From: Letharia columbiana
Lineage: Eukaryota; Ascomycota; Lecanoromycetes; Lecanorales; Parmeliaceae
Direction: 5' to 3'
Assembly: GCF_014066305.1 (NCBI RefSeq)
Contig: NW_023501087.1
Coordinates: forward strand, 275,001-339,000
DNA length: 64,000 bases
Shown here: positions 8,771-55,344 of the stretch, one piece after another
How the letters are laid out: each line of letters begins with the position of its first letter
Numbering within the stretch: the stretch's first letter is position 1
Notes under the pieces: model-generated
Told to the model about the DNA's origin: nothing
What the model saw: only the letters and a program-made list of their open reading frames with translations
Databases searched by the model: none
Made by a program: the position numbers and the translations under genes

Positions 8771-10895
8771 ATGTCTCTACGCTTCTCTCTCACATCTTTG
8801 CTCTGCTGTTTGTTGTTGACTCTGGTGTACGGACAGACATGTCCCAATTCGACTTGTGAGGCGTCTCGTCTCCCCTTATATTTACACAACTCAAACTAAA
8901 ATCTTCTTTCTCTTCAGCATTAGGAGGGTTCCCAGCATTGATAGAGGTCACCTTAGAAGAGCTCGAGACTGGGCTTGAGGCTGGTGAATTTACAAGCGTT
9001 GATCTCGTCAATGCATGCACCTGGTTTGAACATTGAAATTATGTCGCAACTGACAGCGTGCAGGCATACATTGCAAGGATCAATGAGGTCAACGGAACCC
9101 TCAATTGCGTCACCGAGGTTAACCCGGACGCTGTTAGCATTGCTGCAGGATTGGATGCAGAGCGAGCAAATGGCACTACCAGAGGACCCCTGCACGGGGT
9201 ACCGATCATTATTAAAAACAACATTGCAACGAACGATAAGATGAACAACACCGCAGGCTCCTTTGCTTTATATGGAGCGAAAGTGCCAAGAGATTCGACA
9301 CTAGCTTCCAAACTGAGAGCTGCAGGCGTCGTTATCCTAGGAAAAGCGAACTTGAGTCAATGGGCGAATTTCAGATCTGACAACAGCACGAATGGGTGGA
9401 GTGCTTATGGCGGTCAATGCTACGGAGTCTATTACCCAGGCCAAGATCCTAGTGGAAGTTCCAGCGGCAGCGCCGTCTCTTCAGCGATCGGTCTTGCATT
9501 CGCAGCTCTCGGATCAGAAACCGACGGCAGCATTCTGAGCCCCAGTGAGGTTAGCAATCTCGTAGGTATCAAGCCCACCGTAGGACTTACCTCCCGATCC
9601 CTGGTCATCCCCATCAGTCAACGCCAAGACACCGTAGGTCCAATAGCAAGGACCGTCAAGGACGCAGCTTATGTCCTTCAAGCCATTGCCGGCAAGGATC
9701 CGCACGACAACTACACGTTGGCTCAACCATGGGACACACCTCCTGATTACGTCGCCGCCTGCAACTTCTCCAGCCTACGCGGAAAGCGTATCGGTATTCC
9801 ACGCAATGTGATTGACCCAACCGAAGAGCCAGATGACACGGTCATAGTCGCCTTTAACGCTGCTGTCGAGACCATCAAAAAAGCAGGCGCAACAATCGTC
9901 GACAACACCAATATTACGGCGTACGCACTCGCCCAGTACAACAACGGCTCGAACGAAAACATCGTCCTTGACGCCGACTTCGTCTCTGATCTCCCGGGCG
10001 AGTATCTCTCAATGCTAACCTACAACCCGCAAAACGTGCACGACCTCGCCGATGTAGAAAACTTCACCCACCACTTCGCACAAGAAGATTACCCTGACCG
10101 CGACACCGCAGTATGGGATCGTACGTACATTTCGGAGCTAATCCTTCCTATTTGGTAATGAAGTCGAGTCGCAAGACACGGTTCGGGAGCAAGAGAACCT
10201 TTCTACTCAAGAGACCTGTCTTGCAACTCCATTACCTACTTCGGCCAAACAATGCTAACACGGAAATCTGCGTAGAATCGTTAGCACTCGGTTTCAACAA
10301 CACCAGTCCCCTGTTCTGGGCCGCCTATCAGAACAATCTAGAAGTAGCTGGTCCCCAAGGTATCCTCGGCTTGCTGGCGAACTACAGCCTTGACGCGTTG
10401 ATTCTGCCAACGGATTTCTCGCCCGGGCTGCCGGCCATGATTGGGACGCCGGTCGTAACGGTACCACTGGGGTTCTATCCTGCGAACGAGACCGTGGTGC
10501 GGAATATGAGAGGGACGTTGATTGAGACGGGGCCCAACATTCCGTGAGTGCTGTTCAGAAGCTACCGCATTAGGTCTCCCACTAGTTGACGGCAGCAAAA
10601 CAGATTCGGACTCAGCTTCATCGGCGCAGCATGGAGCGAAGCCAGCCTCATTGGGTATGCATATGCGTACGAACAAAGAACGCAGACCCGTAATAAAGTT
10701 CAGCCGTACATCGTGCCCTCGACGGAGCTGATTGATGTCGTGGGCAAGAGTAGCGGGAACTTTTCCATGCCCATGGGCAAAAGGAGCCTCAAGAGCCTAA
10801 GGAACCATGAGAGCGTGAGAAGCTATGAGATGAAAAGGAGCATTGACAGTAAGAGGAATTTCCCGAGAAAGGTGTCGTCGAGGCATGTGAGGTAG
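8771..10895 (+). CDS. Secreted amidase (amidase signature family)
   Basis: Five exons (8771-8855, 8918-9006, 9064-10120, 10276-10543, 10604-10895) give an in-frame protein of 596 residues. It opens with a hydrophobic signal peptide (MSLRFSLTSLLCCLLLTLVYG), so it is probably secreted. The Ser-cisSer-Lys triad is visible: Lys in GVPIIIKNN, the Ser-rich stretch DPSGSSSGSAVSS, and the nucleophile context ALGSETDGSI. The protein would hydrolyse amide bonds; the substrate cannot be read from sequence. The C-terminus ends the fold with FIGAAWSEASLIGYAYAYEQ, then a basic tail of about 50 residues that is unusual for the family. Intron 3 (155 nt) is an introner-like copy. Intron 1 uses GTGAGG and intron 2 the weaker GTCAAT. 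Confidence 0.88.
10121..10275 (+). repeat. Introner-like intron, copy 1 (in the amidase gene)
   Basis: This 155-nt phase-1 intron begins GTACGTACATTTCG and ends TGCGTAG. It aligns without gaps to the 155-nt intron at 44219-44373 in an unrelated gene, with 109 of 155 positions identical by hand count. It contains an inverted repeat (GAGTCGCAAGACA with CTGTCTTGCAACTC, 10164-10236 approximately), so the RNA can fold into a long stem, and a TGCTAACA branch site near the 3' end. Confidence 0.85.
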
Positions 10896-44139: not shown

Positions 44140-45702
44140 ATGGCACCACGGGGTGACACCCTGGGCGTCCAGTACGCGAAGAACATGCAGCACTTTGGAT
44201 GCGGTGTTGCACTTTTCCGTACGTACATTTCGTAGAAGATCCTTCTCATTTGGTCCTGAAATTAAGTCGCAAGACATGTTTACGGAGCAATTGACCTGCT
44301 CTGCTCACGCGACTTGTCTTGCAACTCAGCCATTTACCTTTAAGAGGGAATGCTGACCCCAAAACGTGCGTAGAACCAATCTCAGCAGGGGATATGAATC
44401 CGCCATGCGTCGGTTACCTAGAGAAGGATGGAAGGTGGAATCATATCGCCAACATTACTTGGCAAGAGTCGGACGGAAGCATGCAAGCTGATGCCACTGG
44501 TGGAGGCTTGAACGTCAGCAGAGGGCATGAATTCAAACCACTCAAGCGTGCGCCGAGAAAGATGGAGCAGCTAGGCATTGAGTGGAGGCCTCGAACTAGC
44601 CAAGGTGTAAGGCAGTGGACTGTAGATGCGAGTGGAAACACGCCGTGAGATTGACCCTCCTTTACACATTGGACCACGGCAGTGCTAGGAATCCTGCCAT
44701 GCATCTATAAATCGATGCGCTGACCACTTTCCTTCTCTCAGTAGCACTCTCCCTGTCGGTGCTGATGCCCGCATCAAATACAAATCAAAGGATAGTTTTG
44801 GTGCCGTCCTCATCGCCCAGAAACCCATCACTCTAACCTCATACAACGACGAGACTCTCTTCCAATCATGGCTCAGTGCCAACAAAGCTCTTCTCTCCTC
44901 CTCCCACGGTCCTCAGCTTCGACGCCATGGTCTACGCATTATTACTAGGACTTACACATCTCCGAGTTGTAGCATCAACGCGTGGGAAGATAAGGACAAA
45001 GAAGCCAACATGAGCGTGAAGGCGAAAGCGAATATGATGGGCGAGCTCGGAGGCGACTTGGACTGGACAGACAAGTTGACTGATAAGGATTGGAGTCATT
45101 ACTCTGGCAAGGACAAAGGGGATACGGTGGTGGTGTTCTTCGATGGCATTGAAGTACCTGCCTGGGAGTGGTGGCTCGAAGGTCTCAGGACCAGCATGGG
45201 CAAAAGAGGTCCAGTGAAAGAGAGGATTGCATCGAGTTCTGCTAACACGCAAAGCGTCGGGCGTCCAGACAATATGATACGTGCACACAGCTATTCGGCT
45301 GCGGACTCGCCTGTGGACGAGCGGGCTCTGCTTACTGAAGATCTTTGGGGCTCCGACACCCCATTGCGGATGCACAGTCCACTCAGCGGCCGGAGTCCTT
45401 CACGAGGACGGCAGGTCAAGTCCGAGAAAGCGGAAAGCCCGAGAAGCATCTCCACTCCTACAAGGCTGTCCAAGTATCTCGCTTATGATGAGAATCCAGC
45501 TCTCCCAGTGCAAAGGGCTAAGGCTGTACCTGTACCGAATCAGAGGCTCAGTATGATGTCCACCGCTACTTCCAACTCGAGTGCCAGTACCAGAGCGCAA
45601 AGCCTGAGGGTCAATGGCTACGAGACGAGTCCACCGGCTGCCATGCACAGGGGTGAGCTGCAGAGGAAGACTGGTTCGCCGTCTTTGAGACTTCCTACTT
45701 GA
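44140..45702 (+). CDS. Uncharacterised fungal protein with introner-like intron
   Basis: Three exons (44140-44218, 44374-44644, 44742-45702) encode 436 residues starting MAPRGDTLGVQYAKNMQHFG. The middle (FGAVLIAQKPITLTSYNDET, LFQSWLSANKALL, HGLRIITRTYTSPSCSINAW) belongs to a widespread fungal family of unknown function, seen by its alternating GA-L----I---SY--E--F--W---N and HGL-I-T-T-T---C-INAW blocks. The last third, from about residue 270, is Ser/Pro/Arg-rich and probably disordered (SPLSGRSPSRGRQVKSEKAE). Intron 1 is a 155-nt copy related to the amidase intron at 10121. No signal peptide or membrane helix was seen. Confidence 0.75.
44219..44373 (+). repeat. Introner-like intron, copy 2
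   Basis: This 155-nt phase-1 intron has the same length, the same first 14 bases (GTACGTACATTTCG) and the same last seven (TGCGTAG) as 10121-10275. The inner inverted repeat AAGTCGCAAGACA / TTGTCTTGCAACT is kept, and the branch region is TGCTGACC. The host gene is unrelated to the amidase. Confidence 0.85.
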
Positions 45703-53022: not shown

Positions 53023-55344
53023 CTACATCCCCGTCCAGGAGAACTCGTAGTCGATGACCTTGTTGTGTCCTCTGATGGCTTCGTCCCCATGCATGTGCAT
53101 TACATCCGCCACTAGGTCATTAAGATTCTTGAATTCCTCGGAATGATTGGTCGCAGGTACGACCATGGACTTCTCGTTCACTGCGTTGGTGTCCATTTCT
53201 AACCGGCCAAAACCTGGATCACCAGCCATGTCCCTACGTTGATGTTCACTCTGAGAGATGCCCGCGACGTTTTCCACCAAATTATCACCGTCAATCTCCG
53301 AGCCATTGTTGACCACATTGCCAGCGATGTCCCTTAGCTCTGCAAAGAAGTCATCGCTCAAGTCTTCCTCTTGGGTCGTCCATTTGTTTGTCTCGAGATC
53401 AAAAATACTGTAGGGGTGTTTGCTTTGCCTGCGTATCTCGAACCCAGTCTTCCACCTCCGCCGGTATTGGATCATCTTTGTCGCTAGAACTTGATTCTGA
53501 GTCTGTAGTCTGATCCGATGCGGACTCGTAAATCTCAATGATCTCTCTGCCTGAGCTGATGTTGTTCTCGATGTCGAGACTCGTCAGTGCACCAAGCGTG
53601 CCGGATTGAACAGCATAGTACCCTTGTACCGCACCATTTTTGAAAGCTACATTCTGGTTCCACTGCCCTCGTTTTTTGCCACCCTCGGCGTTGTAAAACT
53701 TGTAATCCTGTGTAATGCTCCAAACACCTATGTACTTTCAAAGTCAGCATTGCTTATTCGTGGTAAGAAACTTGGTGCGCACCGCTCTCAAAATATTTCG
53801 GGGGAATGCATAAAATCCCCACCAACTCTCCTACAGCTCTACCCAGAGAGTATGTCATCGGAAGAACTTCCTTTTTATTGCGCGGCGAGCATGCGACAGC
53901 CTTTCGTGGCTTTGAAGCACTTTTAAGAAGAAAGGATCATCGCTTCCGGGCGTTGTCGGCATATTGACAAGAAGCCTAGATAGTGGGATATGTGATATTA
54001 TGGCCTTGTACTTGTTAGCTAACTCTGCAGATAGTGACAGAAGGCCTACTTCGTTGTCCACCCCGCCGAATATGAGGTATTCGCCCGCTCCTGTGTATCT
54101 GAAATCCGTCTTGAGCTTCAAATTATGAGCCTTCTCGACATTGCCTCTTTCATCTGCCTTGGTAAGATCAATGACTGCGATTGAGGCGTCCTCACCGCCT
54201 CTGAGGGCCCTGCTTAACAATGAGTACAATACCGTCGAAAAGTGTCTCAGCATATTGGGGTACAGATCAGGAAGGAATCGCTCCGAAATGAAGACATACA
54301 TATGCAATGCACGCATCGGGTTCTTGGTCGCGGAGACAAACTTGCTGGGTCGAGAATGATCGTGCTTCGTGATGTGATGCCTTCAGATTTTTGGAGTCAG
54401 GTTGTGTACTTTGAGATGGGAAGGGACTCATTACAGTGCTTCCCCACGGTAAAGTGTGACTTCCAGGTTTCGAGCGAGTGGAATGGTTGGGCAATTGAGA
54501 AAAGCGCCGGCTGAATGCTTTAGTTCATGAAGTAGATTACGTTCGATAAGATAACCAGTAACTCACCACGAATTCCCAAGACCGAGGAGTACGTGCCTTG
54601 CGATTGGCCAGTAAAAGCGCGGAAGCCGATTTGTGCCAACCTCTTCTCGGTGGTGAGACGTGGCATTTTAGCCTCTCTTGAATCCGGTGGGGTCAGAAGG
54701 CCATTGCCTTTTTGTCTGCCGTTGGATTTCGTGGGTGTCTTCGGAAGAAGGGTGAGCCCATGTACTGTCTTTGCATATGAGGCTGTCTGACAATCGTTGT
54801 CAGATAGATGTGGAAAGAAGTCGGTCCTGGCATCGTCAATTGAGTCGGTACGTTTTCTCTTGTGCCCTTGAGCGTTGTCCTTGTCGGACATCAAGGAGCT
54901 ATCACTAGCCTCCTTTGCGTGGAGGAGAATGCCGATTTCATGGGCCTTTTTTTCAAGTCCAGCTCGGGACACCATCTTTGCTCTATCATAGGGTGACAGG
55001 GTACTCTGTAATTTCTTGAAACCATTGCCTGCATTGAATCCCTTTTTTTGCATATCATTAAATTGGGTACTGATGACTGGCCTTCGAAGACCTCCACAAC
55101 GTCGAAGGTCAGACCTGTGAAAATGGTTGAAGACGGAAGTTTTCTCGTTCCAGTTATTGCTGTATGACTCAGCGAGCATAGCCAGCGTAAGTCGCTGTTC
55201 GAGCGTCCAACTGTGTTTGTACGTGGGGGTTGGGGTTTCGTCACGAGAGCCATCGCTCAAGGCTCTTGAGGCAGGTTTCAAAGTTGATGGTAGGTCTTCG
55301 TCATCGGCCTCAACTTTGACCGGAACGTTTGATTCCACGTCCAT
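53023..55344 (-). CDS. DUF7587-like fungal protein, two frame breaks
   Basis: Exons 55344-54567, 54510-54435, 54380-53783 and 53727-53023 can be joined. The first exon is a nuclear-looking region (SWTLEQRLTLAMLAESYSNN, a Myb-like helix block; HKRKRTDSIDD). The core reads LYRGEALHHITKHDHSRPSK, FVSATKNPMRALHMYVFISE, ASIAVIDLTKAD and FRYTGAGEYLIFGGV, the pattern I know from DUF7587 proteins, common in ascomycetes and sometimes placed near heterokaryon-incompatibility genes. The tail includes YKFYNAEGGKKRGQWNQNVA and an acidic end. Two single-base breaks are needed: one missing near 53940 (after DDPFFLK) and one surplus in the A5 run at 53401-53405 (before FDLETNKW). Function unknown. Confidence 0.6.

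Follow-up and report, generated by a model that had tools for sequence, protein, structure and literature searches.

Two matching introns in Letharia columbiana belong to a hairpin-forming, introner-like family

The origin of new introns is a long-standing question, and it is raised here by two introns in different genes that share most of their sequence. Both lie in a window of 64,000 nucleotides from Letharia columbiana, by which we mean the whole stretch of DNA analysed. Introner copy A (10121..10275, plus strand) is an intron of an amidase gene, and copy B (44219..44373, plus strand) is the first intron of a gene starting at 44140. Each is 155 nt long, runs from GT to AG and lies in phase 1 after a C, at a C|A exon junction. 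The two match at 109/155 positions with no gaps, and their first 14 and last 7 bases are identical. These values agree with the preliminary description, which had proposed a single mobile or multiplied intron family. Using blastn inside the window, the similarity reached E = 4e-19 across the first 109 bases.

The inverted repeat said to be common to both introns was also located. It forms an inner hairpin at 10168..10227 in copy A (arms 10168-10177 and 10217-10227; whole-intron fold z = -3.83) and at 44266..44325 in copy B (arms 44266-44275 and 44315-44325; z = -2.89). The 16-nt terminal inverted repeats, a 5'/3' pair found family-wide, occupy 10122..10137 and 10259..10274 in copy A, and 44220..44235 and 44357..44372 in copy B. 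A branch-point motif lies at 10254..10259 in copy A (GCTAAC, which we take to be the fungal motif) and at 44352..44357 in copy B (GCTGAC, conserved in a 30-copy alignment). All of these features are on the plus strand. The host gene of copy B was delimited from the sequence plus tblastn with homologue P0124, giving exon 1 at 44140..44218 (26 codons plus 1 nt) and exon 2 at 44374..44644, both on the plus strand. The end of exon 2 was read from the GTGAG that follows it, and P0124 aligns to 44645. For the amidase gene, the tblastn alignment suggests at least one further intron upstream of copy A. A 16-bit piece of the 3' part of the family lies at 53736-53771 (minus strand), perhaps an old degenerate copy. 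Beyond it and copies A and B, the window held no profile match of at least 10 bits.

Further copies had been predicted across the genome, and they were found by blastn, three pattern scans and a profile. The search covered 52,243,142 bases in 161 contigs, including the window. Blastn with copy A gave at least 40 near-full-length matches at 77-100% identity, counting A itself (41 matches listed, 40/92 candidates scored). The 41st match was a 68-base antisense alignment inside another match, because the element is palindromic. With up to three mismatches, the inner-arm pattern matched 106 times (control 0), a count that includes some opposite arms of hairpins already counted. The 3'-end pattern also matched 106 times (control 0) and the 5'-end pattern 210 times (control 34). 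Loci were taken from among the matches listed, about the first 100 places per scan. The resulting 164 loci were partly redundant, and omitted 17 listed places and about 32, counted by eye, that were particular to the 3' scan. A 30-copy profile produced 410 match lines of at least 10 bits on the two strands of these loci and 0 on reversed DNA. The lines collapsed to 196 unique places, 126 of them at 40 bits or more. Three loci (L132, L135 and L152) gave no profile match, and two (L076 and L083), judged by coordinates, duplicate places present in other loci. The family therefore numbers very roughly 200 copies, in host genes that are unrelated where tested.

One pair of copies (L021 and L024) is 96.8% identical with differing flanks, which points to recent family activity. 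Among the 126 copies of at least 40 bits, exon flanks were shared by L062 and L084 alone. One copy with identical flanks on two contigs was seen for L009/L010 (contigs C109 and C77) and for L062/L084 (C1 and C140). Each pair would reflect either a segmental duplication or two haplotypes; an excerpt of PMC10512270 describes Letharia thalli as triploid-like.

Splice junctions were studied in 110 copies, after 16/126 were removed because they were partial or had no clear GT at the start or AG at the end. All 110 copies are GT..AG because they were selected that way. When the intron was cut out exactly, 86/110 copies had a reading frame that stayed open across 90 nt to either side, and 24/110 did not. 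With 1 or 2 nt extra cut out, 61 and 60 stayed open, with the intron retained 55, and on the antisense strand 43. Compared with each of the two shifts, 31 and 32 copies were open solely if removal was exact, and 6 and 6 solely if it was shifted.

Sixteen spliced proteins, picked because the frame was long or the copy scored highly, were then scanned against Pfam. A domain clearly spanned the junction in 12/16 (GH32, MFS, S10, FMO, MMR_HSR1, amino-acid permease, PMI, DSBA, Ras, FMN_dh, TrAA12 and S28) and merely touched it in 2/16 (ABC2_membrane_7 and Malic_M). In the amidase, the domain stops short of the copy A junction, and the host gene of copy B matched no Pfam family. The domains belong to different families across the spliced proteins, so the host genes are unrelated, as had been supposed. 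Frames and Pfam domains place most tested copies sense-oriented in coding exons. The junction falls at SIHQ|PRS in an ABC transporter, RL-Q-LWDTAGQ in Ras and FNDDV-Q-GTG in a malic enzyme. We take the segments SIHQPRS, RLQLWDTAGQ and FNDDVQGTG to be well-known motifs of these proteins. At the tested sites, exact removal thus appears to give back an open frame and motifs that are conserved. The GT..AG ends, branch-point motif, frames and homologues together suggest that the copies may be spliced as U2 introns. In automatic assignment most C|A copies were phase 1, yet phase was unambiguous in 29/110 copies alone. Ten short patterns for peptides encoded by the introner, run against 283 homologues, gave three matches, all ordinary homologous sequence.

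Homologues of the host genes were examined for the state of the insertion sites. At the amidase junction, 120/120 listed homologues (the best 120 of 7991) were gapless within 10 residues. Of these, 27 stop exactly at the residue of the window's own unspliced stop, where the next intron begins with GTGA. They were therefore taken as unspliced genomic ORFs with an intron-free site, and they are 68-94% identical. For the host gene of copy B, 22/43 listed homologues span the junction, all 22 gapless, and 21 do not. Among the 22, 17 are apparently unspliced, gapless and 53-84% identical. If a relative carried the intron in this gene, its ORF would fall below the length needed for listing, so the copy B intron may be shared with close relatives. 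At the GH32 site, 118/120 listed homologues, taken regardless of splicing state, were gapless and 2 gapped. At both window sites apparently unspliced relatives are intron-free. Copies A and B thus appear to be seamless gains that left the coding sequence unchanged at the tested sites. For seven copies checked, no second, intron-free allele was present in the assembly. A long-read assembly of the sister species Letharia lupina has been published, according to the available portions of PMC10512270 and PMC9146135, so gain at dozens of sites is directly testable.

Stable hairpins had also been predicted. The consensus sequence was folded in place of an RNAalifold alignment fold, since RNAalifold paired 30 copies partially, with 19 pairs, and found no fold for 91. 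Built from 91 copies of at least 60 bits, the consensus forms a single hairpin that spans nt 2 to nt 154, with 55 pairs and -64.8 kcal/mol. This is far below 200 shuffles of the consensus (mean -33.2, sd 3.8, lowest -44.1). Such a full-length hairpin would set both splice sites side by side. Individual copies fold more weakly than the consensus (-47.5 and -44.0 for the window pair), and z was below -2 in 22/30 copies folded, which bears out the prediction. Seven subfamily consensus sequences kept 46-54 of the 55 pairs, with folds of -51.8 to -71.8; for these seven clades, pairing did not differ significantly from random (0.06 to 1.0 of simulations reached the observed value).

Across copies, pairing was kept in 0.820 of cells versus 0.812 in column shuffles, and both-side changes numbered 94 versus 67.9, with 0/300 shuffles as high in either case. 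The pairing gap is tiny, and relatedness by itself could yield such counts. Any selection for the fold once a copy has inserted is weak at most, because pairing is hardly above the column shuffles. The 16-nt ends averaged 10.5 terminal-repeat matches versus 4.0 in the control, with at least 12 of 16 in 46/91 copies. The element is a near-complete palindrome, with 118 identities to its own reverse complement (maximum 102 in 100 shuffles). We read the folds as those of a putative hairpin progenitor whose copies have been decaying since.

The exon bases at the junction are not random. Among the 110 copies, the -1|+1 bases were C|A in 29, G|A in 23, G|C in 19, G|G in 15, T|G in 8, G|T in 6 and others in 10. 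The three loci L013, L143 and L070 have another copy 0-4 nt upstream, hence their -1 base is not ordinary exon. With C at -1, A followed at +1 in 29/31 copies (binomial p 3e-15 versus the local dinucleotide background), and with T at -1, G followed in 8/9 (p 3e-4). A tree of 91 introns sorts the copies into nested subfamilies. The C|A class required 8 changes versus 24.1 when shuffled (0/500 as low), on a topology that bootstrap had not fully settled; clustering of the small T|G group on this tree was not significant (41/500). Nearest relatives had the same -1 base in 71% versus 41% of all pairs, and the same +1 base in 62% versus 36% (p 0.0005 for each). Further flank positions were near background, with weak uncorrected p of 0.016-0.056 at -7, -3, -2 and +2. 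The -1/+1 exon bases therefore seem to go with the intron subfamily, related copies sharing them. Since the background was that of local dinucleotides, some of the bias could be shared with the ordinary introns of this genome.

A GTACGT start and GCGTAG end occurred together in 27/28 C|A copies. The donor GTACGT was found in 30/31 copies with C at -1 and 41/63 with G at -1. Compensation for donor strength is an unlikely cause of C|A, GTACGT being largely common to the C and G classes. A bolder reading, less probable than not, is a subfamily-specific insertion code, under which the intron sequence, and not a general splice-site preference, might choose among C|A, G|C, G|G and T|G as the exon dinucleotide to enter. 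If true, recognition of the target would lie with the element, much as it does in guided retrohoming. There was no excess of target-site duplication over permuted flanks in the 110 copies: exon-exon repeats of at least 1, 2, 3 and 4 nt numbered 24, 7, 3 and 0, versus 32.2, 9.0, 2.3 and 0.5.

That copies A and B belong to an introner-like family is well supported by the genome-wide copies, the coding-exon sites, the hairpins and the intron-free relatives, and the reading first proposed stands. The whole explanation, that they are members of a Letharia columbiana introner-like family putatively spreading via excised intron RNA, is in our judgement very probable. New copies most likely arise by way of such RNA. 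Once excised and folded into a hairpin, the intron RNA would get back into the exon of a gene under transcription, either through reverse splicing or because break repair captures it, and a DNA copy would then be made. The hairpin would be required for spreading and not for splicing, and would decay after insertion.

Three other explanations were weighed. A MITE-like non-autonomous DNA transposon, carrying terminal inverted repeats and both splice sites and making a target duplication of zero or one base, would account for the terminal repeats and the near-complete palindrome. The subfamily-linked junction preference resembles a target-site preference, and C|A and T|G are one step seen from opposite strands. 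However, duplication is not above chance and the junctions are gapless against homologues. Extra copies of at least 15 bits beside a better copy were also on the same strand in 38 cases and opposite in 1, and we consider such a transposon unlikely. We hold equally doubtful a break-repair origin, in which a folded intron, as RNA or DNA filler, is joined into a blunt break, a model proposed for symmetrical Hypoxylaceae introns in the part of PMC8469720 available. It fits the seamless insertion, adjoining hairpin ends and absence of duplication, but random breaks predict neither the C|A excess nor its subfamily link. The strong consensus structure would suit old introns kept alike by gene conversion or by selection on a common structure. 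This is hardly credible, as relatives lack the intron at both window positions, the host genes are of unrelated families and the tree shows nested subfamilies.

The family belongs to a known kind of element. The preliminary description had pointed to the introner-like elements that van der Burgt and colleagues reportedly found in Dothideomycetes in 2012. That link does not apply to the host: among the homologues listed, the closest named amidase relatives come from Lepraria neglecta and Cladonia borealis (87%), both of them lichen fungi, and Letharia is placed in Lecanoromycetes. The Letharia family thus differs in host from the Dothideomycetes elements. As far as the sections of PMC4457414 at hand describe the latter, both comprise similar introns, in Letharia putatively spliceosomal, that have multiplied across unrelated genes and have a predicted stable fold, and in both there are recent gains, genes with more than one copy and species-specific content. 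An AG/GY preference is quoted for the 2012 elements in an extract of PMC8469720, whereas the commonest Letharia junction is C|A.

The symmetrical sister introns and stwintrons of Hypoxylaceae and Xylariaceae, in the portions of PMC8469720, PMC12403724 and PMC9024468 covered, also have terminal inverted repeats, a hairpin, seamless insertion and no target duplication, and are functional on the coding strand alone, as would hold for the Letharia copies. For the Xylariales symmetrical (stw)introns, integration sites are given as seamless and random (PMC8469720 and PMC12403724, in part). They are largely twin introns with no exonic bias in the same extracts, whereas the Letharia introns appear to be single and have a strong, subfamily-linked junction bias. 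Gozashti 2022 (PMC9860276, in excerpt) describes introners from diverse eukaryotes, which resemble the Letharia family in whole-length similarity and presence in many genes. In that excerpt, ascomycete families are reported without terminal inverted repeats or target-site duplications, unlike the Letharia family, which has the repeats. Fungal introners are the cases in which no DNA-transposon signatures were seen. The Letharia repeats contrast with the survey, and the subfamily-linked junction bases give a testable handle on mechanism. No report of introners in lichen fungi was found among the openly accessible papers listed; the available text of PMC11889510 names introner-like elements just in a general sentence on fungi. 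The host class is therefore new to the introner literature as far as searched. What is new in this known kind of element is the full-length consensus hairpin, which ends in terminal inverted repeats and comes with no target duplication above chance, together with a junction preference that is inherited and has yet to be explained; the family offers a natural case of intron making.

Several minor observations were made along the way. One locus (L005) carries two copies of differing divergence, at 1234-1372 and 1501-1655, and another (L025) three on one strand, also of differing divergence. Head-to-tail copies 0-4 nt apart were seen in L013 (1394-1649), L143 (3-287) and L070 (1377-1658), and in L013 the 3' end CTACGTAG abuts the GT of the next copy. 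A search of viral_contigs with one family pattern gave 0 exact matches, which says little about homology to published elements. Five loci compared with Rfam at E <= 0.1 matched an unrelated snoRNA and nothing else, namely Afu_264 (RF01505; L022 2722-2812, minus strand, E = 4e-12), close to a GH32 gene. The G+C content of the window is 50.0% versus 39.57% for the Letharia columbiana assembly, as given in an extract of PMC9146135, so the remaining genome must hold much A+T-richer parts.
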